Shown here one piece after another: positions 3,333 to 31,978 of a stretch of DNA of 35,224 nt. The position numbers were made by a program, and so were the translations under genes. The DNA comes from a bacterium. Its GTDB lineage: Bacteria; Vulcanimicrobiota; Vulcanimicrobiia; Vulcanimicrobiales; SCRA01. The DNA is taken from NCBI GenBank assembly GCA_004298675.1, contig SCRI01000056.1, positions 1 through 35,224 of the forward strand, given 5' to 3'. Positions within the stretch are counted from its first letter, which is position 1. Every line of letters starts with the position of its first letter. The notes beneath the pieces were generated by a model. That model was given only the letters and a program-made list of their open reading frames with translations, ran no database searches and was not told the DNA's origin.

Positions 3333-4867
3333 GAGCCGCCGACAGCCTCGACGCGACGTTCAACGCGGCACAGTGGTTCGTGCAGCGCCACGTTGCCGAA
3401 GGCCGCGGCGCCCGCACGGCGCTGCTCACCGACGACGAAAGCGTGAGCTACGCACAACTCGACGAAGAGGTACGGCGCTTAGCTTCCGCGCTGGCCGCCG
3501 CAGGCGTCCAGCGCGGCGAGCGCGTGGCGATCGCACTGCCGGATTCGCATGCCTGGTCGGTGGCGTTCTGGGGGACGCTGGCCATGGGAGCGGTGGCGGT
3601 TCCGCTGAACACGCTCCTCAAGCCGCAGGACTACCGCGCGATCCTGGCCGACTGCGATGCGCGCCTCCTCATCGCCGACCTCGCGCTCGTCGACGGCGCG
3701 CAGACCGCTCCCAAGGACTGCGTGGTATGGGATGCCGCCCGCATGCTCGAGCAGACGGCGCGCAGCGCACCTCGCGCCGGCTACGAGCAGACCAACCGCG
3801 ATGCCTTCGCTTTCTTTCTTTACTCGAGCGGCACCACCGGAGAGCCTAAAGGCGTCGTGCATCTGCACCACGACCCCTGGATCTGCGCGCGCACGTACGG
3901 CGAGCAGATTCTCGGCGTGCGCCCGGACGATCGCGCGTTCAGCATCGCCAAACTCTTCTTCGCCTACGGCCTGGGCAACGCGCAATACTTCCCCATGGAC
4001 GTGGGCGCCGCGTGCATCCTCTACGCCGGGCGTCCGGCTCCGGCGAACGTCTTCGCGCAAGTGGCGCGCCACCGCCCCACGCTCTTCTTCGGCGTGCCCA
4101 CGGCCTACGCGCAGATGCTAGCGGCCATCGATGCCGGCGAGAAAGCCGATTTTTCCAGCGTGCGTGCCTGCGTTAGCGCCGGCGAGGCACTGCCCGCGCC
4201 GATCTTCGAGCGCTGGAAGGAGCGTACGGGCCTGGAGATCCTCGACGGCATCGGCTCCACGGAGATCTGCCACATCTTCCTGACCAACCGGCCCGGCGGG
4301 TGCCGCCCCGGATCGAGCGGCCAACCGGTTCCGGGGTATCGTGTGCGCATCGCAGACGAAGCTGGGCACGATGTCGAAGATGAAACCATTGGCGATCTCC
4401 TCGTGGAGGGCGACTCGACGATGGCGCTCTACTGGAATAAGCACGAGCGCACGAAGGCGGTGCTCGAGGGCCCGTGGATCCGAACAGGCGACAAGTACCG
4501 CCGTGACGCCGACGGCTACTTCTGGCACGCCGGACGCAGCGACGACATGCTCAAAGTCGGCGGCATCTGGGTCTCGCCGGTCGAGGTCGAAGCCGCGCTC
4601 ACCGCGCACGAGGCGGTCCTGGAGTGCGCCGTCATCGGTTGCGAGGACGACGACGGACTGGTCAAGCCACACGCCTACGTCGTGCTCAAATCAGCCCAGG
4701 GCGCGCCCGCGGAGGGCGAGCTCCAACGCTTCGTCAAGGAGCGCCTGGCGCCGTACAAATATCCGCGCTGGGTCACCATCGTCGAGGCACTCCCCAAGAC
4801 GGCTACCGGAAAGATTCAACGCTTCCAGCTGCGTGCCCAGGCCGCAGACGACCGAAAGGTACGGTGA
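3329..4867 (+). CDS. Benzoate-CoA-ligase-like acyl-CoA synthetase
   Basis: A 512-residue ANL-superfamily enzyme of normal length. It has the ATP-binding P-loop YSSGTTGEPKG (165-175), the A5-type motif GIGSTE (307-312) followed by HIFLTN and RPGGCRPGSSG, the hinge region TGD...GRSDDMLKVGG (386-411), and the adenylation lysine in PKTATGKIQR (Lys495). The GIGSTE-x-x-HIFL and GGIWVSP-x-EVE pattern is that of benzoate-CoA ligases. It should activate an aromatic or related acid to its CoA thioester via an acyl-AMP. It sits between a CoA thioesterase (4-base overlap) and a GH130-like gene (1-base gap). No ring-reducing or box-pathway genes are in the window, so benzoate as substrate is an inference. 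Confidence 0.87.
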   Translation: MRAADSLDATFNAAQWFVQRHVAEGRGARTALLTDDESVSYAQLDEEVRRLASALAAAGVQRGERVAIALPDSHAWSVAFWGTLAMGAVAVPLNTLLKPQDYRAILADCDARLLIADLALVDGAQTAPKDCVVWDAARMLEQTARSAPRAGYEQTNRDAFAFFLYSSGTTGEPKGVVHLHHDPWICARTYGEQILGVRPDDRAFSIAKLFFAYGLGNAQYFPMDVGAACILYAGRPAPANVFAQVARHRPTLFFGVPTAYAQMLAAIDAGEKADFSSVRACVSAGEALPAPIFERWKERTGLEILDGIGSTEICHIFLTNRPGGCRPGSSGQPVPGYRVRIADEAGHDVEDETIGDLLVEGDSTMALYWNKHERTKAVLEGPWIRTGDKYRRDADGYFWHAGRSDDMLKVGGIWVSPVEVEAALTAHEAVLECAVIGCEDDDGLVKPHAYVVLKSAQGAPAEGELQRFVKERLAPYKYPRWVTIVEALPKTATGKIQRFQLRAQAADDRKVR

Positions 4868-4868
4868 G

Positions 4869-5924
4869 ATGGATTTCGACGCGAACATCGTGCGCTGCGG
4901 CGTTCCACTAGTTCCGCAAGATGGCGAGCCCTATGAAAGCGAAGGCATTCTCAATCCGGCTTGCGCGCGCGATCGCAGCGGGCGCTTGCTCATCTATCCG
5001 CGCTGTGTGGCCGCCGGCAACATCTCGCGTATCGCCGTGGTGCGCGCGGAGCGCGGAGCCTACGAGCGACTAGGGTACGCGCTCGAGCCTAGCGCAGCGT
5101 ACGAAATACGTCCCGAGCCGGGCTACGGCTGCGAAGACCCTCGCGTCACCTTCGTGCAAGCCATCGACCGGTACGTGATGGCCTACACGGCGTTCGGCCC
5201 AGCGGGGCCGCGCATTGCGCTCGCGCTGTCCGACGACGCCTACCGCTGGGAGCGCCTGGGCTTGGTCGACTTCTCCGCCTTCAACGCGCGCGCGGGCGAC
5301 GACAAGGATGCCGCGTTCTTCCCCGAACCCGTGCTCTCGCCCGCAGGCGTGCCTTCGCTGGCAATGTACCACCGCCCGATGCTGCATCTCTCGGTGGTGG
5401 ACGGACGCGATGCGATCCCGCTGCTGCTGACGCTGGAGCCCGCGCAGCGCGAGTCGATCGAGATCGCCTACGTGCCGCTGGACGACGTGCTCGCCGACCG
5501 TGCGAATCTGTTGCGCATGCGCGAGAGCGTGCGCGTGGCGTCGCCCGACGGGAACTGGGGCAACGTGAAGGTCGGTGCGGGTACGCCGCCGGTGCGCGTG
5601 GCCGAAGGTTGGCTCAGCCTCTACCATGGCGTCGACGCCGTACCGTGCAACGGCGGCTACGATCTACGCTACTGCGCGGGCATCTTGATCCATGATATCG
5701 AGCGGCCCGACCGCATTCTCTACCGCTCCCCCAACCCCGTGCTCACTCCGGAGACGCCGCTCGAGCGCAACGGCATCGTTGCCAACGTGGTCTTCCCGAC
5801 CGCGCTCGATCTGCGCACCGATCTCGGCGGACGCGTCTTCGACGTCTATTACGGCATGGCCGACGCCCGCATCGGGCACGCACGTCTGATGCTCGGCGAA
5901 GAGGCCGCAGCCTCCGCCGCCTAG
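4869..5924 (+). CDS. GH130-like beta-mannoside phosphorylase/hydrolase family protein
   Basis: 351 residues from ATG 4869, one base after the ligase stop. The frame stays open far upstream, but that part is antisense-style run-on inside the ligase gene. Visible features are YESEGILNPA (22-31), the family motif GCEDPRVT (87-94, with the Glu-Asp-Pro-Arg core), KDAAFFPEP near 150, NWGN near residue 230, and YYGMAD near the C terminus. This is the five-bladed beta-propeller pattern of GH130, whose members phosphorolyse or hydrolyse beta-mannosides. No signal peptide is seen, so it should act in the cytoplasm. Why it is coupled to a CoA ligase is unclear. It could be a non-carbohydrate member of the propeller family. 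Confidence 0.82.
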   Translation: MDFDANIVRCGVPLVPQDGEPYESEGILNPACARDRSGRLLIYPRCVAAGNISRIAVVRAERGAYERLGYALEPSAAYEIRPEPGYGCEDPRVTFVQAIDRYVMAYTAFGPAGPRIALALSDDAYRWERLGLVDFSAFNARAGDDKDAAFFPEPVLSPAGVPSLAMYHRPMLHLSVVDGRDAIPLLLTLEPAQRESIEIAYVPLDDVLADRANLLRMRESVRVASPDGNWGNVKVGAGTPPVRVAEGWLSLYHGVDAVPCNGGYDLRYCAGILIHDIERPDRILYRSPNPVLTPETPLERNGIVANVVFPTALDLRTDLGGRVFDVYYGMADARIGHARLMLGEEAAASAA

Positions 5925-16805: not shown

Positions 16806-17492
16806 CTAGGCCTGGCCTACGACCGCCGCCGCAAACGTGCGGGTGCGCGCGTCGACGTTGGTGATCGCGGTGCCCACCACGCACGCGTAAGCACCGCGAG
16901 CAAGCGCGCCGCTGACCTCCTCCGGCGAACCAACCCCGCCTTCGCAGATCACCGGCCGATCCGCGGCGTGCGCGATGCGCGCCACCAGCTCGAGCGCGGG
17001 CAGCGGAGTGCCGCGCGTCTGCCCGGTGTAGCCGCAGAGCGTGGTGGCGAGCAGATCGGCGCCAAGCCCCTGCGCCGCCAGCGCCTCTTCGAAGGTGGCG
17101 CAGTCCGCCATGACCGGGCGAGCCAACTCGTTGCGTACTACCGCGATGAGATCCGCAAGCCGCTCGCCGCCGGGGCGGGGGCGCGCGGTTGCGTCGAGTG
17201 CCACGACGTCGGCCCCCGCAGCCACGATCGCGCGCGCATCGTCCAGCGTGGGCGTGATGTAGACCTCGCAGCCGGCGACGCGACGCTTGATCAGTCCGAT
17301 GACCGGCAGCCCGCAGCGCGCGCGGATGGCGCGAACGTTGGCCACACCCTGGGCGCGCAGCGCGACGGCGCCGCTGCACTCGGCGACCCGCGCCAGCGCG
17401 GCCAGCACGCGCGGGTCGTCGAGCGCACTTCCATCTTCCGCTTGCACGCTCACCACCAGCCCGCGCGCGAACGGAACGCCGTATTCAAGCAC
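16806..17492 (-). CDS. nanE: N-acetylmannosamine-6-phosphate 2-epimerase
   Basis: 228 residues from GTG 17492, close to the 229 of E. coli NanE. The frame is open to an ATG at 17531, but GGGGGAGG five bases before the GTG decides for the shorter form and makes an 8-base overlap with the kinase gene. TIM-barrel marks are RGLVVSVQ at the N terminus, GLIKRR (catalytic Lys region), YITPTLDDA, VVALDATAR, LATTLCGYTG, and ICEGGVGSPEEV with VVGTAIT (phosphate binding). It converts ManNAc-6-P to GlcNAc-6-P. It is the last gene of the nine-gene unit. No NanA, NagA or NagB gene is in the window, so further catabolism must be encoded elsewhere. Confidence 0.93.
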   Translation of the reverse strand: MLEYGVPFARGLVVSVQAEDGSALDDPRVLAALARVAECSGAVALRAQGVANVRAIRARCGLPVIGLIKRRVAGCEVYITPTLDDARAIVAAGADVVALDATARPRPGGERLADLIAVVRNELARPVMADCATFEEALAAQGLGADLLATTLCGYTGQTRGTPLPALELVARIAHAADRPVICEGGVGSPEEVSGALARGAYACVVGTAITNVDARTRTFAAAVVGQA

Positions 17493-18396
17493 GCTCGCCT
17501 CCCCCTCTGCCTCCGGCCAGCCACAGCGCACCGATGACCGGCTCGGCCAGCGGCTCTCGCAGCGTTACCCCTTGCAGCGTCAGCTCGCGGGCCATGGCAC
17601 GGCGCAAGAGCGGGTCCACGGCGGCCCCGCCGACCACGGCCACCTCGCCGCGCCGCAGCCCCAAGCGCTCCAACGCCACCAGCGCCAACTCGGCCAGCGC
17701 ACGCCCTGCCTCCTCCACCAAGCTGATAGCGGCAACCTCGCCCTGCAGCGCTAGCGCCGTGACGACGGGGGCGAACCCCGCCAGCGTGTCCCGCGCCAGC
17801 GCGCGCCGGTAGAAGGCGGCGGGAATCTGTGCCGGCCGCTCCACGCCGAAGTGGCGGCAAGCCGCCTCCCCGAGCGCGGAGTCGCGGCCGCGATCCGCGC
17901 TGTCTAGCGCGCGGCGGATGGCCTCGGCGGCGATCCAGAAAGCGGACCCCCGGTCCCCGAACAGGTAGCCCCAGCCGCCCACGCGTACCTCGTCGCCCGC
18001 CGCGTTACAGCCAAAAGCCACCGAGCCCGTTCCGGCGATGACCGCCACGCCGGGGGCGCCGCCAAATGCCCCCATCCACGCGGCGGGAGCGTCGTGACCC
18101 ACCGTGAGGCGCTCCGCGCGCACGACGCTGCCTACCACGGCGACGCGCTGCTCCTCAACTTCGCCCGTGAGCGCGACGTGCGCTCCTTTGAAGAGCGTGG
18201 CGGAGGGGAGACCGGCGGCGCGCAGCGCGGCGCGCACGGCATCGTCGACGGCGGAACGCAGACGCTCCTGCGCCCCCGGCTCGTCGACGTGGTTGGCGGG
18301 GCCGCCGCCGCCACGCCCCAGCACCGTGCCGCGCTCATCGCCCACCACGGCCTGGGTGGCGGTTTGGCCGCCGTCGACACCGGCGTAGAGCTTCAT
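17485..18396 (-). CDS. N-acetylglucosamine-kinase-like ATPase (BadF/BadG family)
   Basis: 303 residues with the ASKHA kinase fold. AGVDGGQTATQAVV (5-18) is the phosphate-1 loop, VAVIAGTGSVAFG (about 118-130) is phosphate-2, GYLFGDRGSAFWIA (about 143-156) is the sugar-site signature, and VAVVGGAA near 255 is the adenosine motif. The GDxGSxxW-type signature is typical of human NAGK-like kinases that make GlcNAc-6-P or related amino-sugar phosphates. It overlaps the upstream mini-zincin by 4 bases and the downstream nanE by 8. With nanE it suggests cytoplasmic phosphorylation of an amino sugar, probably GlcNAc, ManNAc or a derivative. Confidence 0.88.
   Translation of the reverse strand: MKLYAGVDGGQTATQAVVGDERGTVLGRGGGGPANHVDEPGAQERLRSAVDDAVRAALRAAGLPSATLFKGAHVALTGEVEEQRVAVVGSVVRAERLTVGHDAPAAWMGAFGGAPGVAVIAGTGSVAFGCNAAGDEVRVGGWGYLFGDRGSAFWIAAEAIRRALDSADRGRDSALGEAACRHFGVERPAQIPAAFYRRALARDTLAGFAPVVTALALQGEVAAISLVEEAGRALAELALVALERLGLRRGEVAVVGGAAVDPLLRRAMARELTLQGVTLREPLAEPVIGALWLAGGRGGGERA
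17498..17505 (-). promoter_or_regulatory. Ribosome binding site deciding the nanE start
   Basis: On the minus strand GGGGGAGG ends five bases before GTG 17492. It lies inside the end of the kinase gene. It supports the GTG over the upstream ATG at 17531. Confidence 0.75.
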
Positions 18397-18719
18397 CGCC
18401 TGAGTCGCCTGCGCACGCTGGCGGGATCCACCGTGAGAGCGAAACTACGGCGCGCGTAGGCATCCGCACGCTCCTCACGCCGGCGCTTGTCCGGCTCGCA
18501 GGGCACCGCTCCGGCGTGCTCCAGGTGATGGTAGAGCTCGTGCGCGACGCACGCCGCGAGCACTCCGGCGCGGTCGGCGCTCCCGCACAGCAGGCGTGCA
18601 TTGACGTAGATGGCCCGGGCGTGCGGATCGTACTCGGCGGCGACGAAGCGCGCGGCCGCGCCGAAATCCTCGATCTCGACGCGCAGTCCCAAACGTGCCG
18701 CCTGCGCGAGCGGATCCAC
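18393..18719 (-). CDS. Mini-zincin metallopeptidase-like protein (HELYH)
   Basis: 108 residues from GTG 18719. The start is inferred from the TAGTG junction with the FAD gene (1-base overlap) and a GGAGG ten bases upstream. The frame is open further up to 18959, but that part is a shadow of the FAD gene. Residues 56-64 (AACVAHELYHH) hold an H-E-x-x-H zinc motif (His60, Glu61, His64), and a second helix, RREERADAYARRSF (about 80-93), supplies acidic ligands. No signal peptide is seen. This is the minimal zincin core of ImmA/IrrE or SprT-like folds. It could be a peptidase or amidase for peptide or muropeptide side chains, or a regulatory protease. Its position inside a sugar operon is unusual. 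Confidence 0.72.
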   Translation of the reverse strand: MDPLAQAARLGLRVEIEDFGAAARFVAAEYDPHARAIYVNARLLCGSADRAGVLAACVAHELYHHLEHAGAVPCEPDKRRREERADAYARRSFALTVDPASVRRRLRR

Positions 18720-20080
18720 TAGTGCGGCGCCTCCGCGGCGAGATCGACACCATCGCCTTGCAGCACGCCCCGCAGGCGCCGCCCGTCGAGAGCGCGCGGC
18801 TGCATGCGCTCGCGCGCGCAGAGCGCCGCCGCCGTTCCCGCCGCCTGCCCCAGCATCATGACCGTGGGCGTCAAGCGCGTGGAGGCGAGTGCCTCGTGCG
18901 TCGTGGAGATGCAGCGTCCCGTCGCCAGCAGGCCGTCGATACCCGCGGGCACGAGACAACGATACGGAATCTCATACGTCTCGCCGGGCGGCAACCGCTT
19001 GGTGATCGTTCCCGCACCGGCTGGATTGTGAATGTCGATGGGATAACCGCTGCGCGCTACCGCGTCGGGGAAGCGCCGGGCCGTCAAGAGGTCCTCCGCC
19101 GTCAGGACGTATTCACCAACGATGCGCCGTGTCTCGCGCACGCCCAGCTGGACGGCAACCGCGGCCAGGCGCGCGCGCTCGAACCCCGGTACGCGACGCT
19201 GGAAGAATGCCGTCAACTCCATCACTTGGCGGCGCCCCTCGATCTCGGCACGCGTGAGCTCGTCGGGGTCGAGCGGATCGATGCCGGTCACGCGCGTCAT
19301 GTTCACCGTCACCTCGTCGCCGTAGGGCGTGGCGAAGAGCGAGACCAGCTCGCGCGGCACGCTCACTTCGCCGGCCGCACGGGCGCGCTCCCAAATGTCG
19401 TAGAGCCCGGCCACCGCCGTGAGATCCTCAGCGCGCACGCCGCGTGCGTCGAGATGCGTGCGCATCTGATCCGGATGCGCGCGAATGTAGGCCGCCAAGG
19501 CCTCGCGGTCAACGTGCGAGAGGCGGAAGATCATCGTGCACGGCTGAACGCGTCCGCGCTCGTCGCCGCGCTGCATCGCCACGCCCGCGGAGGCGGAGAG
19601 ATGCGCGTCGGCCGTTGCGTCGATGCTGACCGTTGCGCGCGCCTCGCGCACTCCGCCTACCGTCGCGAAGCGTGCGCCGCGCACGCGCGCTCCGTCCATC
19701 AGCGCATCGAGCAGCCAAGCATGGAGCACGAGTTGGACGCCGGCTTCCTCCAGCAGCTCGAAGAGCACAACCTTGAGTATCTCCGGATCGAAGGGCGTGA
19801 TCGTCGGCACGTAGCTCGAGGCGTCGGGAAGGTGTCCGGGCGAGCCGCCGCGCGCCTGCAACCGCTCCACGATCTCCTGCGCGATACCGCCAACCACCCG
19901 GCGCTCGCCGGCGTGGAACGTCATCCACGGTCCCACCATTGCCGCCGTCGCCGTCCCGCCGAGAAAACCATAGCGTTCGATCAGCAGCACCGCCGCGCCG
20001 TGGCGCGCGGCCGCCAACGCCGCCACGCAGCCGGCGTTACCGCCGCCGGCTACCAGAACGTCCGCGGCGTAGGCGCTCAT
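18719..20080 (-). CDS. FAD-dependent oxidoreductase (FAD_oxidored family)
   Basis: 453 residues. The N-terminal Rossmann motif is VLVAGGGNAGCVAALAAA (G12-x-G14-x-x-G17), followed by the FAD ribose Glu in VLLIERYGFLGG (31-42). The second family block is SIDATADAHLSA (about 151-162), and the C-terminal FAD loop is GLLATGRCISTTHEA with GQAAGTAAALCA. It should oxidise or reduce a small substrate using FAD in the cytoplasm. Family members occur beside sugar and polysaccharide catabolism genes, and substrates are mostly unknown. It overlaps hyuA-like by 4 bases upstream and the mini-zincin by 1 base downstream. Confidence 0.85.
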   Translation of the reverse strand: MSAYAADVLVAGGGNAGCVAALAAARHGAAVLLIERYGFLGGTATAAMVGPWMTFHAGERRVVGGIAQEIVERLQARGGSPGHLPDASSYVPTITPFDPEILKVVLFELLEEAGVQLVLHAWLLDALMDGARVRGARFATVGGVREARATVSIDATADAHLSASAGVAMQRGDERGRVQPCTMIFRLSHVDREALAAYIRAHPDQMRTHLDARGVRAEDLTAVAGLYDIWERARAAGEVSVPRELVSLFATPYGDEVTVNMTRVTGIDPLDPDELTRAEIEGRRQVMELTAFFQRRVPGFERARLAAVAVQLGVRETRRIVGEYVLTAEDLLTARRFPDAVARSGYPIDIHNPAGAGTITKRLPPGETYEIPYRCLVPAGIDGLLATGRCISTTHEALASTRLTPTVMMLGQAAGTAAALCARERMQPRALDGRRLRGVLQGDGVDLAAEAPH

Positions 20081-22179
20081 GCGCGCCGGCGGGAGAGCAC
20101 GATCCCCACCCGTTCCTCGCCAGGCATGGCGCGCACTTCTTCACGCGCAAGGGCCACGGCCTGCGCAACTGCGGAGACGTCCCCGACTTCCGCGATACGG
20201 CTGCCCACCAACAACGCGCAGCGCGGCAGCGCGCGCCCCACGTCGCCAAACGTGGTCCAGCGCTCCAACGCACGTGCCAGCTGCGCCACGGCCTCGCCCG
20301 CGGGGAGCGCGCGCGCCCAGGCCTCGGACCTGCGCAGACGCACCACGCCGGCATAGTCGACGGCCGCAACGCGCCGCTCCGAGTTGATGAAGACGGCGAA
20401 GGCGCCCGTACGCGCCACCTCGCGCAGCAACTCCGGCGTGCAGCCGAGTGCGCGCGCCGCCTCTTCACGGCGTACCGCCTCGCCGGCGGCACGCGGCACG
20501 GCGGTTCCGCCGAGCGCCGTCGCCCCCGTAGCCACCGCTCGCACGCAGTTGCGGCGCGCATCCACCTCCACTTCGACTTGGACGCTCACGGGGTCGGCAC
20601 CGGAACGCACGGCGGCGGCCTCCGCCTCGGCCCGCACGCGCACCACGTCGTCGGGTGTGGGATCGACGACGGTACGCTCCACCACGTCACGCACCAGTGC
20701 CAGCGCCACGCCGATCGGCGAGATCACTTCGGCATCGCGTGCCAACCGCCAAGGCTGGCCCAAGCGCTGCGCGACATACGGGATCAACGCGCCCGCGCCG
20801 CCGCCGCCGCCAACGATGACCACCGGCGCGCGCAGTGCATACGCGCGGGTAAGCGCGGCGAAGACGGGCGCGAGCCGCTCGGTAGCAAGATCGAGAATCG
20901 CGCGCGCCAACGCGTCGGGCTCGCCGCCCAAAGCGTGCGCGGCGCAGGCAAAGGCCGCACGCGCCGCGGCAGCGCCGGCGGCACGCGCAAAGGCACCGGC
21001 GGGGATGCAGCCCAGCGCATTGGCGGCGCAGGTGGGCGTGAGCGCGAAGCGTGTGCCATCGGCACCGCGTAGGGCCAGATAGCCGTCCTCGGCCGGTGCA
21101 AACACCGCCTCGGCGAACGCATCCGCCGGCTCAAAGCAGGCGTAGCGCATTCCCGCGATATGCGCGCTGCGCGGCCCCAACTCGACGATGGAGCCGCTGC
21201 GCAAGCGCGCGAGGCTTCCGCCCGCCACCGCCAGCGTGCGCACGTCGAGTGCCTCCACGCTGGTGCGTGCTCCGCCCAGCAGCGCCGCTTTGGTCTGCGG
21301 GCGGCCGTCGACCACGGCGCTGCAGTCCGCACTCGTGCCTCCCACTTCGACGAAGATGCCCTCCGAGAGGCGCTCGTGAAAGAGCGCACCCGCCACGCCC
21401 GCCGCCGGGCCGGAGAGCATCGTGGCCACCGGACGGCGCTCCATCTCGCGCGCGTCCATCACGCCGCCGTCGCTGCGCATGATCATCAGCGGCGCGGGAA
21501 TGCCGGCGCGATGCGCCGCCTCCCCCGTCATGCGCGCGGTGCGCACCATGGTGGGAAGCATCGCGGCGTTGAGCGCCGCCGTGCGCGCGCGCACGCGCAG
21601 ACCGTACAGCGTGCTCACCTCGTGCGTGGCCGTGGCGAAGCCCATGCGCTCGCGCGCCACCTTGGCGACGTAGGCTTCGCGCGCGGGGCGGTCCACCGAG
21701 AAGGCGTCCGCAACCACGATCGCCTCGGCACCGGCGTCGCGCAGCGCGTCGACCGCGGCTTCCAAGCGTTCCGGCCGGCGCGTGGAGAGCCAGCCGTAGA
21801 GCGGCTTCAACTCCACGCCGGCCGCCAGACGCAGCGGCGGGACGCGCGCGGCCATGCGCGCGAGGACGCCTTCGAAACCGCTGCCCAGCGTCAGCACGCC
21901 GACGCGCGCAAGATCGCCCTCCAGCAGCGCATTGGTAGCCTGCGTGGTGGAGTGCGCGAGGAAGACGACGTCGTCCGCTACCACACCCCACGCTTGCGTC
22001 GCGCGCTCGAGCGCCTCCACGATGCCGCGCGCCACGCCTTCGGCGGCGCGGTGCGTCGTGGGAACTTTTAGCGAGCCCAGCAGCGCACCGCTGCCCGCAT
22101 CGACGGCCACCACGTCCGTGAACGTCCCGCCCACGTCGATGCCGATGCGCACGCGCGTGCCACGCGGCAGCGCGGTCAT
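20077..22179 (-). CDS. HyuA-like hydantoinase/oxoprolinase family ATPase, divergent
   Basis: 700 residues from ATG 22179. The frame is open to 22626 but that extension is a shadow of the PDZ gene. The phosphate-1 loop is IGIDVGGTFTDVV (12-24). Other blocks are HSTTQATNALLEG (about 77), LMIMRSDGGVMDA (about 230) and VEVGGTSADCSAV (about 275). In ordinary HyuA the last block reads D-M-G-G-T-S-x-D, so Asp-to-Glu and Asp-to-Cys-type changes are present, and the usual GAGGGS and GPACYG blocks appear altered (AVAGGS, AGMRYACF). HyuA enzymes use ATP to open a lactam or imide ring, often with HyuB; no hyuB is seen. It overlaps the PDZ gene by 4 bases. It may act on a cyclic amide or have a different ATPase role. 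Confidence 0.83.
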   Translation of the reverse strand: MTALPRGTRVRIGIDVGGTFTDVVAVDAGSGALLGSLKVPTTHRAAEGVARGIVEALERATQAWGVVADDVVFLAHSTTQATNALLEGDLARVGVLTLGSGFEGVLARMAARVPPLRLAAGVELKPLYGWLSTRRPERLEAAVDALRDAGAEAIVVADAFSVDRPAREAYVAKVARERMGFATATHEVSTLYGLRVRARTAALNAAMLPTMVRTARMTGEAAHRAGIPAPLMIMRSDGGVMDAREMERRPVATMLSGPAAGVAGALFHERLSEGIFVEVGGTSADCSAVVDGRPQTKAALLGGARTSVEALDVRTLAVAGGSLARLRSGSIVELGPRSAHIAGMRYACFEPADAFAEAVFAPAEDGYLALRGADGTRFALTPTCAANALGCIPAGAFARAAGAAAARAAFACAAHALGGEPDALARAILDLATERLAPVFAALTRAYALRAPVVIVGGGGGAGALIPYVAQRLGQPWRLARDAEVISPIGVALALVRDVVERTVVDPTPDDVVRVRAEAEAAAVRSGADPVSVQVEVEVDARRNCVRAVATGATALGGTAVPRAAGEAVRREEAARALGCTPELLREVARTGAFAVFINSERRVAAVDYAGVVRLRRSEAWARALPAGEAVAQLARALERWTTFGDVGRALPRCALLVGSRIAEVGDVSAVAQAVALAREEVRAMPGEERVGIVLSRRRA

Positions 22180-22937
22180 GGCAGCTCCAACGGCTGGCCT
22201 AGACGCACCTCCAGCGTGCGCCCCCCACGCTCTAATCCCAAGGTATGCGGCAATCCGTCGTACGCGCGCCGCTGCGTCTGAAACGTTCCGTACTCCCACC
22301 AGAACTTTCCGTCCAAACGCACCAGCACGTCGCCGTCGCGAACGCCGGCCTCCCAGGCCGGACCGCCCGGGCGTACGGCCACGCGCATCTTGCCATCGCT
22401 GGTCTTGTAGAACGCATACAGATAGGTGGGCGGATCGCCGGGCAGCAGCGCCAGCCCAACGCTGAACAGGCGTGCCGCACGCTCGCGCTGCAGGTGCGCC
22501 CAGACGTCGGCGTCGGTCGTCGCGTGCCTGGCCAGCGTGCGCAGCGCATGCACCACGCCGGCTCGCGGCGCGCTGGTTGGGAGCAGCCGTTGCTCGGTCC
22601 AGCGGTCCACCTCCCAGCCGGCGCAATCGACGAGATCGAAGGTCACCTCCACCAGAACGCCGTCCGCGTACGGCACGTCATCGGCATCGATACGCGCGGC
22701 GGCGGCATACGGTTTGACACGGCAATCACTTGGGGCGGCCTCGCTGTCAAGACTGATCGGACGCAGAGTGCTCCACGTTTGTTCGATGGCACGCCCGGTC
22801 TCACGCGCCGCCACGCGCGCGTCGTCGCTCTCAGCGGGCATCACCGCGATGGTGCCTGCCGCCGTCACCGGCGCAAAGAGCCCGGGAAACTGCGCGATCA
22901 GCGCCGCGGACGCCGCCAGCATCAGCGCGGCGATCAC
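22176..22937 (-). CDS. Membrane-anchored PDZ-domain protein
   Basis: 253 residues from GTG 22937, four bases before the permease stop (GTGA overlap). The long frame reading on to 24269 is a shadow of the permease. Residues 1-22 are hydrophobic (IAALMLAASAALIAQF) and act as a signal or anchor. A middle domain carries three Cys residues (SDCRVKP, VDCAGWEVD). The C-terminal PDZ domain (about 170-253) has the pattern MRVAVRPGGPAWEAGVRDGDVLVRLDG. No protease motif is seen, so it is not a complete S41 or HtrA protease. It may be a periplasmic binding or scaffold protein for the permease. Confidence 0.78.
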   Translation of the reverse strand: MIAALMLAASAALIAQFPGLFAPVTAAGTIAVMPAESDDARVAARETGRAIEQTWSTLRPISLDSEAAPSDCRVKPYAAAARIDADDVPYADGVLVEVTFDLVDCAGWEVDRWTEQRLLPTSAPRAGVVHALRTLARHATTDADVWAHLQRERAARLFSVGLALLPGDPPTYLYAFYKTSDGKMRVAVRPGGPAWEAGVRDGDVLVRLDGKFWWEYGTFQTQRRAYDGLPHTLGLERGGRTLEVRLGQPLELP

Positions 22938-24202
22938 AGGCGCAGCGCCCAGGCAGCGCCGGCGGCGACCGCAACGGCCACGGCCGTCTGAAACGGCAGC
23001 GTGCGCTTGGTGATCGCCTCCACCTCGACGCCTACCTGGTTGGCCACCCAGACATTCTGCGTGTTGGTGGGATCGCAGACGTTCTGCACTTGCACCACGG
23101 CCAACACCGCCGCCGCCAGCGCCAGCGGCGGCAGCGTGGCTTGCTGGGCAAGCACGGCAAAGACCGCGACGCCCACGCCCAGCGGATTGAGTGGACCGCG
23201 ATAGAGAGCCAACGGCGAGAGCAGGCCGAAGAGCAGCACGTACGCGAGCGGCTGACGCGGCGCGAGGCGCGCCATGACCGGCGCGAGCGCACCATGCACC
23301 TGCGGAAGCGCCGCTACCGCCAGCAGCATGCCGATGCCCATCATCAGAAAGACCGCGGGGGCAACGTCCTCGATGCCGCGCACAGCACTGGAGACCAGCG
23401 TCTGCACGGCATCGCGCGGACGCACGATCAGCGCCGCGTAGACCGCCGCAATCAGAAAGGCGGGCACGGGTCCCCACGCGCCCCAGTGGAAGACGAGGAT
23501 CAGAATCAGCGGCAGCACCGGAGCCAGCAGCGCCGGCCACGGCACGCGCGGCGAGACGTCGGCGAAGGGATCGTCGAGCGCCAAACGTGCAAAGCCCCGC
23601 TCGCGCCGCGCGCTCACCAGCAGAAACGCCCCCAGCGCCAGTGCGGCGGCGATGAAGACCGGCGGAGCCAGCGTAGCAAAGGCCGCGTTCGGACTCCCGA
23701 TGATCCCGCCGTACAGCGTCCACAGCGCGATATTGAAGGTCGCGCCCAGCGCAAAGAACATCAGGAAGGCGCAGGCGGCCGTCTCGCGCCGCACGCCGAC
23801 CGAGAGCATCACCGGTAACGCGATGCCGCCCACCATCACGATCGCGCCCAAGCCCGTCAGCGTGGTGAAGAGCGCCGCCACCGCGATGCCGACGGAGACG
23901 ATCACGGAGTAGGGGCGGTCGCCGCCGAACTCCGCCGCGCGCGACACCAAGTGCTCCGCGATCCCCGTGCGCATCGTGACGCGCCCCAGCAGCGCGCCGA
24001 AGATCACCGCCGCATAGGCTGGAGCGATGCGTCCGGCCGTGCCCTCGCCCAACGCCTGCAGCAACTGCTGCGGGTGCACGCCCGCAACTAAGCCCGCCAA
24101 CGCCGCCACTAGCGGCACGGCCAGGAGCGCGGGCAGCAGGCGCCGCCACATGAGCAGCGCGGCGAAGAGAAAGGTGGCGATCAGCGCGAGGCCGGCGATC
24201 AC
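22934..24202 (-). CDS. Ion-transporter-superfamily-like permease (organic anion or sugar acid)
   Basis: 422 residues from GTG 24202, with about eleven membrane helices. Visible marks are FGALLGRVTMRTGIAEHL (about 68-85), the GGDRPYSVIVSVGIAVAALFTTLTGLGAIVMVG helix pair, LYRGPLNPLGVGV, and the C-terminal DPTNTQNVWVANQVG. The re-entrant helix layout and the xGxGAxxMVG-type loop resemble the gluconate/citrate/dicarboxylate branch of the IT superfamily. It probably imports an organic acid, sugar acid or amino acid derivative by ion symport. It overlaps the GH20 gene by 4 bases and the PDZ gene by 4 bases. The substrate is inferred only from the operon. Confidence 0.8.
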   Translation of the reverse strand: MIAGLALIATFLFAALLMWRRLLPALLAVPLVAALAGLVAGVHPQQLLQALGEGTAGRIAPAYAAVIFGALLGRVTMRTGIAEHLVSRAAEFGGDRPYSVIVSVGIAVAALFTTLTGLGAIVMVGGIALPVMLSVGVRRETAACAFLMFFALGATFNIALWTLYGGIIGSPNAAFATLAPPVFIAAALALGAFLLVSARRERGFARLALDDPFADVSPRVPWPALLAPVLPLILILVFHWGAWGPVPAFLIAAVYAALIVRPRDAVQTLVSSAVRGIEDVAPAVFLMMGIGMLLAVAALPQVHGALAPVMARLAPRQPLAYVLLFGLLSPLALYRGPLNPLGVGVAVFAVLAQQATLPPLALAAAVLAVVQVQNVCDPTNTQNVWVANQVGVEVEAITKRTLPFQTAVAVAVAAGAAWALRL

Positions 24203-26247
24203 GGTGACTCGCTCCCCACGCCCAATCCGGAGAACAACTCCTCGCGCGTGGGAAGGCGGTGATCCTCACGGTAGTAACGCTCGCGCGTCACCGCTTGCAG
24301 GCGGTCCTCCATGCGCAGCACGTTGGCGCGCCACTCGTCGTAGCGCGCCAACACGTTGGCGAGGTAGGCCGGGCGGCACTCGGCTTGCCAGGCACGCGCG
24401 TACTCTTCGCGGATGACGCTGAGATTGTCACGCCACTCCCAGAGCAGGTAGCGCGCCAGGAAGAGATCGTGGAAGACGCGCTCGTCGTCCTTGCCCGCGT
24501 GCGCCAGCGCGTCGGCGTAATACGCGTCGAACTCACGGGCGATCTGATACTTACGCCCTAAGAAATCGTAGCGGCGCGCGGCCAGGCGCAGCGCCAGCAG
24601 CGCGTCGGCATGCAGCGGCGGCGGCGCGCCGCCGCTTTCGAGATCGTGCAGCGCGCGCTCCGCTTCGACGCGCACCTTGGCCACGTCGATTTGGGCGAAG
24701 ACGCGGCGCTGATTGCGGAACGGATCGCTCCAGAAGAGATAGTTGGAGGGATCGGTGGGCGTGGTGCGCAGGGCATCCTGCGCCGCGCGTAGCGCGTCGA
24801 GATCATCCGCCCAGCGCGGCTCGTCCGTGCCGAAGAACGCCCAATCGAAGCGCGCGTGAAAGGCGCGCTCGTCGATGGGCGCGGGCTGCCAGGCCGCGGC
24901 GAGCGCGAAGAGCACGGGATACCACGTGTTCGCGAACAGGCTCTCGCCGTCGTCGTGCCAGACCGTCTCCAGCATGCCGATCACGTGCGGCGTGGCTTGG
25001 CCGTCGCGCACGAAGCTCGCGGCGTTCTCGGTAGCCGCCGAGAGACCGGCGTAGATCTCTCCCCAGTCGGCTGCGCCCGGGGCGACGAATTGCTCGATGC
25101 CGGCGCTCGCGAAAGGCGTCAGATACTTTTCGTACGATGCCTCCGGCGCGTAGTGCCAGTTCGCCACGACCACATTCTTCGGAAGGCGCGCGGCGGCGTC
25201 CGGGTGCGCCAACAGCACGTCACCCCAGATCACCGGGCGCATGCCCAGCGACGTGACCGTCGTGAAGAGCGGGGCGTAGTAGCCCAGGTACATCGCCTCG
25301 CTGCCTTCGCGCTTCAACAGATCGGCGGAACGTCCCGTGCCCACGAGGTTCGGCTCGTCACCGCCCACGTGGAAGAACGGGGTGCGCCCCCGCACCTGCG
25401 CCGCCTCGTCTGCGATGATTCCGCGCATGAGTTGCCCGGACTCAGGCACGGCGGGGGCCAACACGTAGTCGTGCGGTAGCTCCGCCAAGCCGGAGTACTG
25501 CTCCACGGAGAGCAGACGGTGCATGTGGCCAAGCGTCTCCTGCTCCGGCATCAGCGCCACGTGAAAGCGCGCGGCGTACTCGGAGAGCTCGCGTAACTCG
25601 TGCGGAGTGATCGCGTCCGGCGGCGTGGGCAACGGCAGATGCGGATCCGCGAAGGCGCTCTCGAAATACAGCGAATAGAGGTTGCCCTTGAACGCGGCGA
25701 TGGTGCGGATGCGCTCTTTGAAAAATGCCAGCGTGGGAATCGGGCCGCGCGAGACGTCGTCGGAGACGCCGCGCCAACGCATGGCCGGATGATCGACGAT
25801 ATGCGCCTGCGGCAGGCACCAGCCGGCGCCGTCGCGCATCGGCAGTTGCGCCAGCGTCATCAGACCGTAGAAGCGCCCCGCCGCCGTATCGGCCAGGATC
25901 TCCGCTCCACCGCGCTCCACCCGGAGGACGTAGCCCTCCTCGCCCAGTTGCGCGTGCTGGGCGCGCTCGCCCGCGCCCAGCTCGGAGACGCGCACCACCA
26001 CGCCCGCGGGCGCGCCCGATGCGATGCCCAGCGCGTGCCAGCGCTCGCCCAGGATCTCCAGCGCGCCGTCTTCACGCGCCACACCTTCGAAGCGCACCTC
26101 GTACGTGTGCAGCGGCGCAACGCACGCGCCGACGGCGGCCTCACGCGGCTGCGGCAGCACCTTCGCCTGCGCTGGAGGCGGCATCAATGCAGCAGCGGCC
26201 AGCAACACCGCGAGCGCGGCATGGCCGCTAGCCACGCGCCCCCGCAC
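24199..26247 (-). CDS. Secreted GH20 beta-N-acetylhexosaminidase-like protein
   Basis: 682 residues from GTG 26247; GTG 26235 is also possible. Residues 1-28 form a Sec signal (basic n-region, HAALAVLLAAAALMPPPAQA). A GH20b-like N-terminal domain follows (about 30-150). The TIM barrel starts at MRWRGVSDDVSRG. The catalytic Asp297-Glu298 pair lies in FFHVGGDEPN, and a substrate-site His in HMHRL. A long helical C-terminal region (about 470-682, RYDFLGRKYQI, YLLWEWRDNLS) is not typical of short GH20 enzymes. It would release terminal GlcNAc or GalNAc residues outside the membrane. The aminotransferase overlap is 20 bases. Confidence 0.87.
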   Translation of the reverse strand: MRGRVASGHAALAVLLAAAALMPPPAQAKVLPQPREAAVGACVAPLHTYEVRFEGVAREDGALEILGERWHALGIASGAPAGVVVRVSELGAGERAQHAQLGEEGYVLRVERGGAEILADTAAGRFYGLMTLAQLPMRDGAGWCLPQAHIVDHPAMRWRGVSDDVSRGPIPTLAFFKERIRTIAAFKGNLYSLYFESAFADPHLPLPTPPDAITPHELRELSEYAARFHVALMPEQETLGHMHRLLSVEQYSGLAELPHDYVLAPAVPESGQLMRGIIADEAAQVRGRTPFFHVGGDEPNLVGTGRSADLLKREGSEAMYLGYYAPLFTTVTSLGMRPVIWGDVLLAHPDAAARLPKNVVVANWHYAPEASYEKYLTPFASAGIEQFVAPGAADWGEIYAGLSAATENAASFVRDGQATPHVIGMLETVWHDDGESLFANTWYPVLFALAAAWQPAPIDERAFHARFDWAFFGTDEPRWADDLDALRAAQDALRTTPTDPSNYLFWSDPFRNQRRVFAQIDVAKVRVEAERALHDLESGGAPPPLHADALLALRLAARRYDFLGRKYQIAREFDAYYADALAHAGKDDERVFHDLFLARYLLWEWRDNLSVIREEYARAWQAECRPAYLANVLARYDEWRANVLRMEDRLQAVTRERYYREDHRLPTREELFSGLGVGSESP

Positions 26248-27406
26248 GCTCCCGCACGAACGCGCAGAGGCGCGCGGCGCCCGTGCGGAGGTCGTCCTCG
26301 GAGCTGGCTAGGCTGATGCGTACCGCTCCCGCCGCAACGCTGCCGAAGGCGCTGCCGGGTGCAACCGCCACGCCGCGCTCGCGCAGCAGCGCCAGCGCGA
26401 AGTCGCGCGACTCCATGCCGCTGGGCGAGACGTCGGCCATCACGTAGAAGGCGCCCGCGGGCAATGCCGCCAGCAGACCATCCGCGCGCAAGATTTCGGC
26501 CACCAGATCGCGGCGACGGCGATAAGTTGCCACCATCTCCGCCACCGGCGCCTGCGGCCCCGCCAGCGCGGCTTCGGCCGCCTTCTGCGAGAGCGTGGGC
26601 GGGCACGAGCAGGTCGATTCCAGCACCTTGGCCATCGTGTCGATCAGCGGCTCGGGGGCGACCGCGTAGCCGAGGCGCCAGCCCGTCATCGCATAGGTCT
26701 TCGAGAACGTGAACGCGCTGATGATCGGCACGCCGGGAGCCAGCGCCGCCGCACTCCAGCCCTCGCCGTCGAACACGATCTGGTCGTAGCACTCATCGCT
26801 GAGCATCCAGACACCGTGGCGCTGCGCCAGCTCGGCGATGCGCACCAGCGCGTCACGGCTCCAGATCGCGCCGGTGGGATTGTTGGGGCTGTTGACGACG
26901 ATGAGTTTGGTGCGCGGCGTGATGAGCGACGCCAGGTGCTCCACGTCGGGTTGGTAGCCCGCCTGCGCGGGGCAGCGGTACGAGATCAGCCGCGCGTGCG
27001 CCCAGGCACACATGATGCGATAGTTGGGCCAGGCCGGGTCCGGCAGCAACACCTCGTCGCCGGCTTCGAGCACGGAGGCGAAGGCCGCCGCGATTACGCC
27101 GACGCCGCCCACGCCGCAGGTGATCTGCTGGGGCGTGGCCGCGATGCCGTTGACGCGCGCCAACTTCTCCACCAGCGCTTCGCGCAGCGAGAGCAGGCCC
27201 TGCGTCTGCGTGTAGAACGTCCAGCCCTCGTCGACCGCGCGGCGCGCCGCCGCGGCGACGTGCTCGGGCGTTCGAAAGTTCGGCTGGCCGACTTCAAGGC
27301 GAATCGCGCCTGGTATCGTCAGGGCGAGGTTCGCGATTTCGCGTATCCCGGAATGGGCCGTCTGCGCGCTCTCTCGCGCCAGCGGCGGAAGGCTTGAGGT
27401 CGTCAC
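26228..27406 (-). CDS. Class I/II aminotransferase, PLP-dependent
   Basis: 392 residues from GTG 27406. Fold-type I marks: YTQTQGLLSLREAL (65-78), VNSPNNPTGAIWS (171-183, with Asn176), Asp204 in LSDECYD, and the PLP lysine Lys236 in FTFSKTYAMTGWRLGY. The C-terminal Arg that holds the substrate carboxylate lies in AVRISLASSE. This is the aspartate/aromatic aminotransferase subgroup. It should transfer an amino group between an amino acid and a 2-oxo acid. It is the first gene of the nine-gene unit and lies 35 bases from the divergent symporter. Its promoter would lie inside that gene or in the 35 bases. Confidence 0.92.
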   Translation of the reverse strand: MTTSSLPPLARESAQTAHSGIREIANLALTIPGAIRLEVGQPNFRTPEHVAAAARRAVDEGWTFYTQTQGLLSLREALVEKLARVNGIAATPQQITCGVGGVGVIAAAFASVLEAGDEVLLPDPAWPNYRIMCAWAHARLISYRCPAQAGYQPDVEHLASLITPRTKLIVVNSPNNPTGAIWSRDALVRIAELAQRHGVWMLSDECYDQIVFDGEGWSAAALAPGVPIISAFTFSKTYAMTGWRLGYAVAPEPLIDTMAKVLESTCSCPPTLSQKAAEAALAGPQAPVAEMVATYRRRRDLVAEILRADGLLAALPAGAFYVMADVSPSGMESRDFALALLRERGVAVAPGSAFGSVAAGAVRISLASSEDDLRTGAARLCAFVRERAGARG

Positions 27407-27441: not shown

Positions 27442-29283
27442 ATGCAGCTGACCACGATCGATTGGACCGTGATCGTCGGCTTCTTTGCCGTGAACATCGC
27501 GATCGGCCTCTGGTATGCGAGGCGCGGCGGACGGAGCGTCGGCGACTTCTTCCTCTCCGGGCGCAGCGTGCCGTGGTGGCTAGCGGGAACTTCGATGGTT
27601 GCCACCACCTTCGCCGCCGACACGCCGCTGGTCGTGACCGGACTCGTGTGGAAGAACGGCATCGCCGGCAACTGGCTGTGGTGGAACATGGTGATGAGCG
27701 GTATGCTCACGGTGTTCCTCTTCGCGGCACTCTGGCGGCGTGCGGGCGTGCTGACCGACGTGGAGCTGGTAGAGGTGCGCTACGCGGGTGCCGGCGCGAA
27801 GTTCCTGCGCGGCTTCCGCGCGGCGTACTTGGGGCTAGCGTTCAACACCATCGTGATGGGCTGGGTCAACTTGGCGATGGCGAAGATCCTGCTGGTGACG
27901 CTCCACACCACGAAGCTGGAGGCCGTCTTCGCGTGTCTGCTGCTCACCGGCATCTACGTTTCGGTAGGCGGGCTGTGGGGCGTGCTGGTCACGGACATGC
28001 TGCAGTTCGTGGTCAAGATGACGATGGCGATCGTGCTGGCGGTGGCGGCCGTCGCCGCCGTCGGCGGCCTAGGCGCGCTGCGTATGAAACTCGGCGCCGT
28101 CGACCTGGCGCGCCACGCCGTGCCGGGCTCGGCCGACTCCGTGCTCTCGTTCGCGCCGAATCTCGACAGCGTGTGGATGCCGCTGCTGACGTTCTTCGTT
28201 TACATCGGCGTGCAGTGGTGGGCCTCGTCGTATCCCGGCGCGGAGCCGGGCGGCGGCGGCTACGTGGCGCAGCGCATCTTCTGCGCGCGCGACGAGCGCC
28301 ACAGCCTGCTGGCCACGCTCTGGTTCACCATCGCGCACTACGCGCTGCGTCCGTGGCCGTGGATCCTGGTAGCGCTGGCGGCGCTGGTGCTCTACCCGCA
28401 CGGCGTGATCAACCCCACCACGCACCGGCCCGATGCGGAGCTGGCGTACGTGCAGACGATGATCGACTACCTGCCGCCGTGGCTGCGCGGGCTGATGATG
28501 GCGGGCTTCCTCTCCGCGTACATGTCCACCATCGGCACGCAGCTCAACCTCGGCGCCTCCTACGTGGTAAACGATCTCTACCGCCGCTTCTTCGTCAAGG
28601 ATCGCAGCGAGCGCCACTACGTCGGCGTTTCACGCGTGGCGACGCTGGCGCTGATGCTGCTCTCGGGCATCGTGACGCTGCACATGGACTCGATCACGGG
28701 CGCGTGGCAGTTCTTACTGGCCTTCGGCGCCGGCGCGGGGCTGGTCTTCATTCTGCGCTGGTACTGGTGGCGCATCAACGCTTGGAGCGAGATCTCCGCG
28801 CTCTTGGCGTCGTTTACGGTCTCGACGGTCATCGAGCAGTTCCACTTGGTCAATCCCGATGAGCCATTAGGCTTCGCCTACCTGATGCTCTGGACCGTCG
28901 GCATCTCGACGGCGGTGTGGATCGCGGTAACGCTGCTGACGCCGCCGGAGCCGATGGAACGCCTGGTCTCGTTCTACCGTCGCGTGCGTCCGGGCCGTGG
29001 CGGTTGGGGGCCGGTGGCGGCGCTGGCGCCCGACGTCGCAGACGGCATGGCGCGCGGGCCGGCGCTCGTGGATTGGGCCGCCGGCTGCGCGCTGATCTAT
29101 CTCTCGATCTTCGGCGTCGGCAAGATTTTGCTGGGCGCGCCGCTCCTAGGCACCACGCTGCTGCTGCTCGCCGCCGCCACGCTCTGGTTCATCCTCTGGG
29201 ATTTGGGGCGCCGCGGCTACGACGTGCTGGGCTCGTCGCGCCCGGAGCTTGCGCCTGAACTGGCTGTGGAGGCCGTGGAGTAA
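27442..29283 (+). CDS. SSS-family sodium:solute symporter
   Basis: 613 residues with about 13-14 membrane helices. N-terminal family pattern: YARRGGRSVGDFFLSGRSVPWW (25-46) followed by TSMVATTFAADTPLVV, and the helix AYLGLAFNTIVMGWVNLAMAK. Later GFLSAYMSTIGTQLNLGASYVVNDLYRRF matches the sodium-site helix of SSS transporters. Sodium-driven import is expected, and the solute could be a sugar, amino acid or carboxylate. It is divergent from the nine-gene unit by 35 bases, so it may serve the same pathway. Its 3' end overlaps the convergent DUF488 gene by 67 bases. Confidence 0.9.
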   Translation: MQLTTIDWTVIVGFFAVNIAIGLWYARRGGRSVGDFFLSGRSVPWWLAGTSMVATTFAADTPLVVTGLVWKNGIAGNWLWWNMVMSGMLTVFLFAALWRRAGVLTDVELVEVRYAGAGAKFLRGFRAAYLGLAFNTIVMGWVNLAMAKILLVTLHTTKLEAVFACLLLTGIYVSVGGLWGVLVTDMLQFVVKMTMAIVLAVAAVAAVGGLGALRMKLGAVDLARHAVPGSADSVLSFAPNLDSVWMPLLTFFVYIGVQWWASSYPGAEPGGGGYVAQRIFCARDERHSLLATLWFTIAHYALRPWPWILVALAALVLYPHGVINPTTHRPDAELAYVQTMIDYLPPWLRGLMMAGFLSAYMSTIGTQLNLGASYVVNDLYRRFFVKDRSERHYVGVSRVATLALMLLSGIVTLHMDSITGAWQFLLAFGAGAGLVFILRWYWWRINAWSEISALLASFTVSTVIEQFHLVNPDEPLGFAYLMLWTVGISTAVWIAVTLLTPPEPMERLVSFYRRVRPGRGGWGPVAALAPDVADGMARGPALVDWAAGCALIYLSIFGVGKILLGAPLLGTTLLLLAAATLWFILWDLGRRGYDVLGSSRPELAPELAVEAVE

Positions 29284-30595: not shown

Positions 30596-31978
30596 TTACA
30601 GCACGGCGGCCAGCTCATCCCAGAGGAACGCCATCGCCTTGATGCCGCCGTAGAACTGCGAGAGCGTGAACTTCTCGTTGGGCGCGTGGGTCTGATCGTC
30701 CGGAAGACCGACGCCCACCAGCACCTGCGGCAGCCCAAGGGTGCGGTCGAACGTAGCGACGGGACCGATCGAGCCGCCCATGCCGATCATCACCGCTGGC
30801 TTGCCGAAGGCGCGCTCCATGGCGCGCGCCGCGGCCTTGGTGGCGGGATGCTCGCGTGAGGTGACGATGGCGCGGCCGGCCTCATGGCTCTCCACGTTGA
30901 CGCGCACGCCAGGCGATGCGACCGACCGGATATAATCGGCGACGAGTTTGGTGATGCGCGCGGGGTCTTGATCCGGCACCAAGCGCGCGGTGATCTTGCA
31001 GCCGGCTTTGGCGGGGATGATCGTCTTGGAGCCCTCGCCTTGGTAGCCGCCCCAGATGCCGTTGCAATCCAACGTCGGGCGCCACCACATGCGCTCCAGC
31101 GGCGTATAGCCGCGCTCGCCGTGCAGCTGCGGCACACCCAAGCGCTTGGCCTCGGCCTGTTCGTCGAACGGCAGCGCGGCGATCTCCGCGCGCTCCGCCG
31201 GCCCCAGCTCGCGCACGTCGTCGTAGAACCCCGGCACCGTGATGCGGCCGTGTTCGTCCTTCAACTTGGCCACGATCTGCGCGAGCGCGTTGATCGGGTT
31301 GTCGATCGCACCGCCGAAGAGGCCGGAGTGCTGATCGCCCAACGTGGGACCGTCGACATGAACCTCCCAACTCACCAAACCACGCATGGCGATGGTGAGC
31401 GAAGGAACGTCCTCCGAGAAGACCGGGGTATCGGAGATCACGACCACGTCGCAGGCTAGCAGATCGCGGTGGCCGGCGACGAAGCCGTCGAAGTTGGGTG
31501 AGCCGATCTCCTCTTCGCCCTCGATGATGAACTTGAGGTTCAGCGGCAGCGCCTTACGTGTGCGCAGATGGGCGGCAAACGCCGCCCAATGCATCACCAC
31601 CTGCCCCTTGTCGTCCACCGCACCACGCGCGTGGAGCTTGCCGTCGCGCACCTGCGGCTCGAAGGGCGGCGAGGTCCAGAGCTCGAGCGGATCGACGGGC
31701 TGCACGTCATAGTGGCCGTAGACCAGCACCGTCGGCTTTCCAGGCGCGCCCAACCACTCGCCGTAGACCACGGGATGCCCCTTGGTCTCCAACACTTGCG
31801 CGCGCTGCATGCCCAGCGCCAGCATGCGCGAGGCGGCGTGCTCGGCCGCGCGGCGAACGTCGCCGCGGTAGGCGCCGTCGGCGCTAATGGACGGAATGCG
31901 CAGCCAAGTCTCAAGTTCTTCGAGTGCCTCTTGGCGGTGTTCGTCGCAGAAACGAGCGAGATCGTCGGAATGCAGCAT
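30596..31978 (-). CDS. M20-family dipeptidase-like metallopeptidase
   Basis: 460 residues of normal M20A/C length. Zinc and catalytic residues are visible: His89 and Asp91 in YGHYDVQP, bridging Asp122 in ARGAVDDKGQ, Glu156/Glu157 in EGEEEIGS (one the general base), Asp near 180 in VVISDTPVF, and a late ligand in GGSIGPVATF. A dimerisation lid domain (about 210-330) lies in the middle. It should hydrolyse dipeptides or N-acyl amino acids in the cytoplasm using two zinc ions. It has no signal peptide. A 60-base divergent gap separates it from the EamA permease. Confidence 0.93.
   Translation of the reverse strand: MLHSDDLARFCDEHRQEALEELETWLRIPSISADGAYRGDVRRAAEHAASRMLALGMQRAQVLETKGHPVVYGEWLGAPGKPTVLVYGHYDVQPVDPLELWTSPPFEPQVRDGKLHARGAVDDKGQVVMHWAAFAAHLRTRKALPLNLKFIIEGEEEIGSPNFDGFVAGHRDLLACDVVVISDTPVFSEDVPSLTIAMRGLVSWEVHVDGPTLGDQHSGLFGGAIDNPINALAQIVAKLKDEHGRITVPGFYDDVRELGPAERAEIAALPFDEQAEAKRLGVPQLHGERGYTPLERMWWRPTLDCNGIWGGYQGEGSKTIIPAKAGCKITARLVPDQDPARITKLVADYIRSVASPGVRVNVESHEAGRAIVTSREHPATKAAARAMERAFGKPAVMIGMGGSIGPVATFDRTLGLPQVLVGVGLPDDQTHAPNEKFTLSQFYGGIKAMAFLWDELAAVL

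Follow-up and report, generated by a model that had tools for sequence, protein, structure and literature searches.

Nine open reading frames on the minus strand of a bacterial contig, each overlapping the next, combine predicted enzymes of amino-sugar metabolism with a HyuA-like ATPase, an FAD-dependent oxidoreductase, a permease and a small zincin, and thereby raise the question whether one pathway accounts for them all. The stretch of DNA analysed (35,224 nucleotides, hereafter the window; contig C41 of genome G000) is part of an Eremiobacterota MAG of 3.03 Mb and 98.5% completeness, which belongs to the same order as the cultured species Vulcanimicrobium alpinum.

Extent and conservation of the gene block

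The block (positions 16806–27406; Table 1) was delimited from the ORF listing and by reading of the sequence. In transcription order, its junctions overlap by 20, 4, 4, 4, 4, 1, 4, and 8 bases. The 4-base junctions read GTGA (GH20/permease and permease/PDZ) or ATGA (PDZ/HyuA, HyuA/FAD, and zincin/NAGK), while the other three are aminotransferase/GH20 (20 bases), FAD/zincin (1 base, TAGTG), and NAGK/NanE (8 bases). The start of the GH20 gene is ambiguous: it may be the GTG at 26247 or an in-frame GTG 12 bases inward, in which case the overlap with the aminotransferase gene would be 8 bases. Strand, gene number, and overlaps given in the original prediction were all reproduced exactly from the sequence, and its family assignments were recovered with the caveats that the GH20 domain is weak but above cut-off, that the permease matches are weak, and that the zincin has no profile match. 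Because the chain is kept in a congener (locus L002), where seven of the eight junctions overlap (8, 4, and 4 bases, a gap of 6, then 4, 1, 4, and 8 bases), it is not peculiar to one assembly. A consensus scan for promoters and terminators gave matches at chance level.

Table 1. Features of the gene block and its surroundings, in window coordinates.
Feature	Position	Strand	Basis
Class I/II aminotransferase	26228..27406	-	PF00155, E 1e-74; PLP lysine motif TFSKTYA
GH20 beta-N-acetylhexosaminidase (predicted), divergent, secreted or periplasmic	24199..26247	-	PF02838 and PF00728 above cut-off
Permease, ion-transporter-superfamily-like (GntP/DctM-like)	22934..24202	-	Weak PF02447
PDZ protein, membrane-anchored	22176..22937	-	PF17820
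HyuA/oxoprolinase-A-like ATPase, stand-alone	20077..22179	-	PF01968, PF05378 (Hydantoinase_A)
FAD-dependent oxidoreductase	18719..20080	-	FAD_oxidored PF12831, E 3e-127
Mini-zincin, ~108 aa	18393..18719	-	HELYHHLEH; ImmA/IrrE-like by eye
BadF/BadG-type sugar kinase, GlcNAc/ManNAc kinase-like	17485..18396	-	PF01869 (BcrAD_BadFG), E 3e-35
NanE, ManNAc-6-P 2-epimerase (predicted)	16806..17492	-	NCBIfam NF002231, 253 bits (cut-off 189)
SSS sodium:solute symporter, divergent neighbour	27442..29283	+	PF00474
M20 dipeptidase	30596..31978	-	NF006053, 584 bits (cut-off 441)
GH130 mannoside-phosphorylase-like	4341..5924, coding probably from about 4863	+	Nearest beta-1,2-mannobiose phosphorylases, far below cut-offs

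Among 149 genomes of the phylum, a HyuA match was detected in 124, this GH20 in 101 (all but one within the window's order), and a NanE above cut-off in 101, all within that order and in single copy. A conserved neighbourhood, which had been named beforehand as the check on the unit, was found: GH20, HyuA, and NanE kept order and strand in all 52 genomes of the order that carry the three genes on one contig, with pairwise same-strand counts of 73/73, 66/66, and 54/54. From one family of the order to the other, amino acid identity is about 35–58% for most members and 65–71% for the FAD enzyme. The block is real and order-wide. The aminotransferase, originally counted as a general part, is a lineage-specific member; among the loci read, it was present only in the window and in L002, i.e., in the window's genus.

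V. alpinum WC8-2, a member of another family of the order, also carries the block (G118:C1, about 365660–380705); its assembly consists of one contig of 3,508,363 bp, the size given for the chromosome of this strain (PMC9758169). In the genus Vulcanimicrobium (L021/L022), two genes, for a GntR-type regulator and for an ABC ATPase, lie between permease-PDZ and M20, and the GntR-type protein is possibly a local regulator. HyuA, GH20, NanE, FAD, and M20 were all absent from one genome (G034). That this genome had cleanly lost the entire block was considered and rejected, since the cytochrome-oxidase (COX) operon there has a different neighbourhood and loss is indistinguishable from the block never having been present. 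The same genome contains a 3900-aa open frame (L124 8297–19999, G034:C3) that starts with short degenerate repeats (SASGNLNTALV...).

Amino-sugar enzymes and their genomic context

GH20 matched PF00728 at 35.7 bits (cut-off 22.3) and contains a hydrophobic N-terminal segment and the motif HVGGDEP; its PDB matches were hexosaminidases, and the Asp-Glu pair occurs in 24 of 24 sequences. By family, beta-N-acetylhexosaminidase activity is predicted. Where the window has HVGGDE, in line with the canonical HxGGDE motif, sister genomes mostly have H[IL]GSDE. PDB matches of the kinase included a hexokinase (2e2n), a MurNAc/GlcNAc kinase (8zo3), and human NAGK. Its score against the NagK_SO3507 equivalog was 103.7 bits, far under the cut-off of 370, and superfamily membership alone is secure for what is predicted to be a sugar kinase. 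Alignment of NanE to 4utt showed the IKR, LDAT, and ICEG motifs, and the protein falls within the NanE family. Judged from their sequences, a role of GH20, the NAGK-like kinase, and NanE in amino-sugar salvage is supported; their active-site motifs are retained throughout the order.

NagA-like genes were found in 12 of 12 genomes searched. In the window's genome this gene lies beside a PGM/PMM-type (phosphoglucosamine-mutase-like) gene, and its NagA match, at 200, is below the cut-off of 225.65. A comparison with known GlcNAc/ManNAc salvage (NagK or NanK, NanE, NagA) shows a likeness, in that GH20, the BadF-type kinase, and NanE would together yield GlcNAc-6-P, with the NagA-like gene located elsewhere. 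The block differs from this system by its linked HyuA, FAD, zincin, PDZ-permease, and M20 genes, and by the lack of matches above cut-off for NanA (14 genomes, including the window's own) and for classical NagB (profile search). These two negative results and the NagA-PGM/PMM context favour salvage of GlcNAc-6-P to the envelope over classical catabolism.

HyuA, the flavoprotein, the zincin, and signs of coupling

The HyuA-like protein belongs to the A-type, actin-like ATPase subunits, and its phosphate motifs are intact: the ATP motifs DVGGTFT[DH] and GGTSxD are conserved in 43–44 sequences. Its structure model (pLDDT 76) gave nearly full-length fold matches, with TM-scores near 0.5, to the A-type subunits of N-methylhydantoinase, acetone/acetophenone carboxylase, and caprolactamase. 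ATPase subunit, fold, and phosphate motifs are thus shared with HyuAB, 5-oxoprolinase, caprolactamase, and acetone carboxylase. However, HyuB (PF02538) gave 0 matches in the 98.5% complete genome of the window and in congener G029, and HyuA is here paired with a permease instead. In caprolactamase, it is the B subunit that carries the hydrolytic, ring-opening metal site (PMC8453981). Since the genome lacks HyuB, the known lactam hydrolysis cannot run here, and the lactam or amide part of the original prediction is not supported. By family, this protein is a HyuA-type ATPase outside the known two-subunit lactam hydrolases.

The FAD-dependent oxidoreductase is by far the most conserved member of the block, with 65–88% identity among relatives and a mean column identity of 75% in alignment A3. 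No PDB relative was found by sequence, its structure model (pLDDT 48) was too poor for use, neighbours of paralogues elsewhere were uninformative, and the literature found on PF12831 consisted of flavoproteome work only. Presence of selenocysteine was rejected, since the in-match TGA codons of three genomes are the terminal stop. A route for oxidised chitin (GlcNAc1A) was likewise discarded: in the pathway described by Ong, the first steps are deacetylation and deamination with no phosphorylation involved, and the paper mentions no flavin enzyme. No Pfam match was obtained for the mini-zincin, whose HExxH motif is present in 19 of 19 aligned sequences.

The permease contains about 9 hydrophobic segments and weakly matched GntP (PF02447) and, in a PDB profile search, TRAP DctMQ (9pym, E 5e-6). 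Permease and PDZ protein are separate in the window's genus and in one sister-family locus (L056), and form one ORF in 22 sister-family loci, some of which are from the same genome; in L006 and L011, the fused ORFs encode 704/705 aa, with PDZ as the C-terminal half. This fusion in nearly all sister-family loci bears out the proposed partnership of the two proteins. The SSS symporter, suggested as a possible accessory, also flanks GH20 divergently in several further genera (L011, L053, L056, and L059; 59–69% identity).

An M20 dipeptidase is absent from the gene list of the original prediction and is encoded outside its interval in the window. All 10 sister genomes with an M20 orthologue at 58% identity or more carry it within the block, downstream of the permease-PDZ gene and before HyuA where HyuA is present. 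Several other sister genomes lack the orthologue, as do both searched genomes of the class's other family; it occurs only in or near the block. In L030 and L058, a class A beta-lactamase-like gene joins M20 inside the block. A peptide component of the block is suggested by the dipeptidase. The permease-PDZ fusion and the in-block M20 are stronger signs of coupling than gene order.

A salvage locus or adjacent modules

The favoured reading, which we judge about as likely as not, is that the block is an order-level locus for salvage of amino sugars and peptides, into which a HyuA-permease module has accreted. The competing account with the most substance, itself somewhat improbable, holds that no single pathway exists and that independent modules (HyuA and permease; GH20, NAGK, and NanE; FAD and zincin; COX) merely stayed adjacent in a slowly rearranging order, the tight overlaps being a product of genome streamlining in the window's genus. 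Background synteny was judged from one flanking control, the GH130 gene, which is located 11 kb past NanE, beyond the COX genes; in 16 of 17 sister-family genomes, its distance from NanE is 6–16 kb. Because this flank is as syntenic as the block, synteny extends over the whole region throughout the order, and conserved order alone is weak evidence for a shared pathway. (An N-glycan substrate, prompted by the GH130 neighbour, was rejected: the GH130 protein is far below the family cut-offs and its gene is on the opposite strand.) Modularity is further apparent from six loci of other classes, in which permease and HyuA are adjacent without sugar genes; HyuA and the permease are an older independent pair, and the idea of one pathway for all nine genes is not supported by this observation. 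Genome G076 has GH20, PDZ, M20, FAD, NAGK, and NanE together, with the permease and a distant HyuA elsewhere, and G084 lacks a close HyuA and keeps the rest of the block. In 12 sister-family loci, an opposite-strand amino-acid permease is located between HyuA and FAD; because it splits the block, the block is not one operon in that family and co-expression is not given. Against mere adjacency stand the overlaps at all eight junctions of the window and at seven of those in the congener, the permease-PDZ fusion and the restriction of the M20 orthologue to the block or its vicinity, and the retention of gene order among members down to about 40% identity while the upstream flank differs. The GH130 control does not remove the fusion and the in-block M20 as signs of coupling. 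That control also counts against the salvage reading, as do the sister-family split and the kinase and NagA scores below their cut-offs, and salvage leaves the source of ManNAc and known steps for FAD, zincin, and HyuA unaccounted for.

Degradation of a muropeptide or glycopeptide, with HyuA opening a lactam or amide (e.g., pyroglutamate from D-Glu), follows the line of the original proposal of a muropeptide-like or modified amino-sugar conjugate, and is improbable. GH20, the M20 dipeptidase, the beta-lactamase-like gene of some relatives, and the lactam hydrolases among HyuA family precedents are compatible with it, but the missing HyuB, with the caprolactamase metal site in the B subunit, and the occurrence of HyuA orthologues without sugar genes argue against it. 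Moreover, the genome has a separate operon (L045 4408–11454, G000:C74) for a NagZ-like GH3, a beta-lactamase/PBP4B-like protein, AnmK, a second BadF-type kinase, and MurQ, and a muropeptide route as such is not supported for the block; this operon ends with a DUF4127 gene. With MurQ-type recycling operons of E. coli, B. subtilis, and T. forsythia, the block shares the theme of glycosidase, kinase, peptidase, and transporter, whereas MurQ, NagZ, and AnmK are missing from it, MurQ being on contig C74. Of the original idea of a degraded amino-sugar conjugate, the amino-sugar part stands, since GH20, NAGK-like kinase, and NanE fit it, and M20 hints at a peptide; the lactam or amide step, without HyuB, is not supported. 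Catabolism of sialic acid or ManNAc, of the NanE type, appears very improbable. It would account for the joint presence of NanE and a NAGK-type kinase, and in the available part of the source on the Listeria lmo2795-nanE operon (PMC10667646), NanE is required for growth on ManNAc itself; as far as that part describes the operon, the block shares NanE with it and adds GH20, HyuA, FAD, PDZ-permease, and M20. Against it stand the negative NanA search and the families identified in the window, which include no sialidase.

In the salvage scheme, a periplasmic GH20 would, to go by its family, free terminal N-acetylhexosamine, and the products would enter through the SSS symporter, the IT-like permease, or both. 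The BadF-type kinase may then phosphorylate GlcNAc and/or ManNAc at O6, and NanE would convert ManNAc-6-P to GlcNAc-6-P, both reactions again being those expected of the families. Deacetylation of GlcNAc-6-P by NagA, encoded elsewhere, could return the sugar to UDP-GlcNAc for the envelope. On the peptide side, the M20 dipeptidase would act, joined in sister genomes by the amino-acid permease. HyuA, as part of the older HyuA-permease module built into the locus, has kept its ATP site and most likely would act without HyuB to activate a small carbonyl or amide compound after its import. A bolder and unlikely extension is that HyuA and its dedicated IT-like permease form a HyuB-free uptake-and-activate module, joined in this order to a novel pathway for amino sugars or peptides that depends on flavin and is centred on the FAD enzyme.

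Strain WC8-2 grows on yeast extract and on no single sugar or amino acid tested, and amino sugars are absent from the compounds listed for its growth tests (PMC9758169). Since this strain carries the block, the substrate question is open to direct test. The block includes conserved enzymes without an assigned function, namely a HyuA without HyuB and a PF12831 flavoprotein, and its presence in almost all genomes sampled from this order, which is largely uncultured, indicates that it is part of the way of life of these bacteria.
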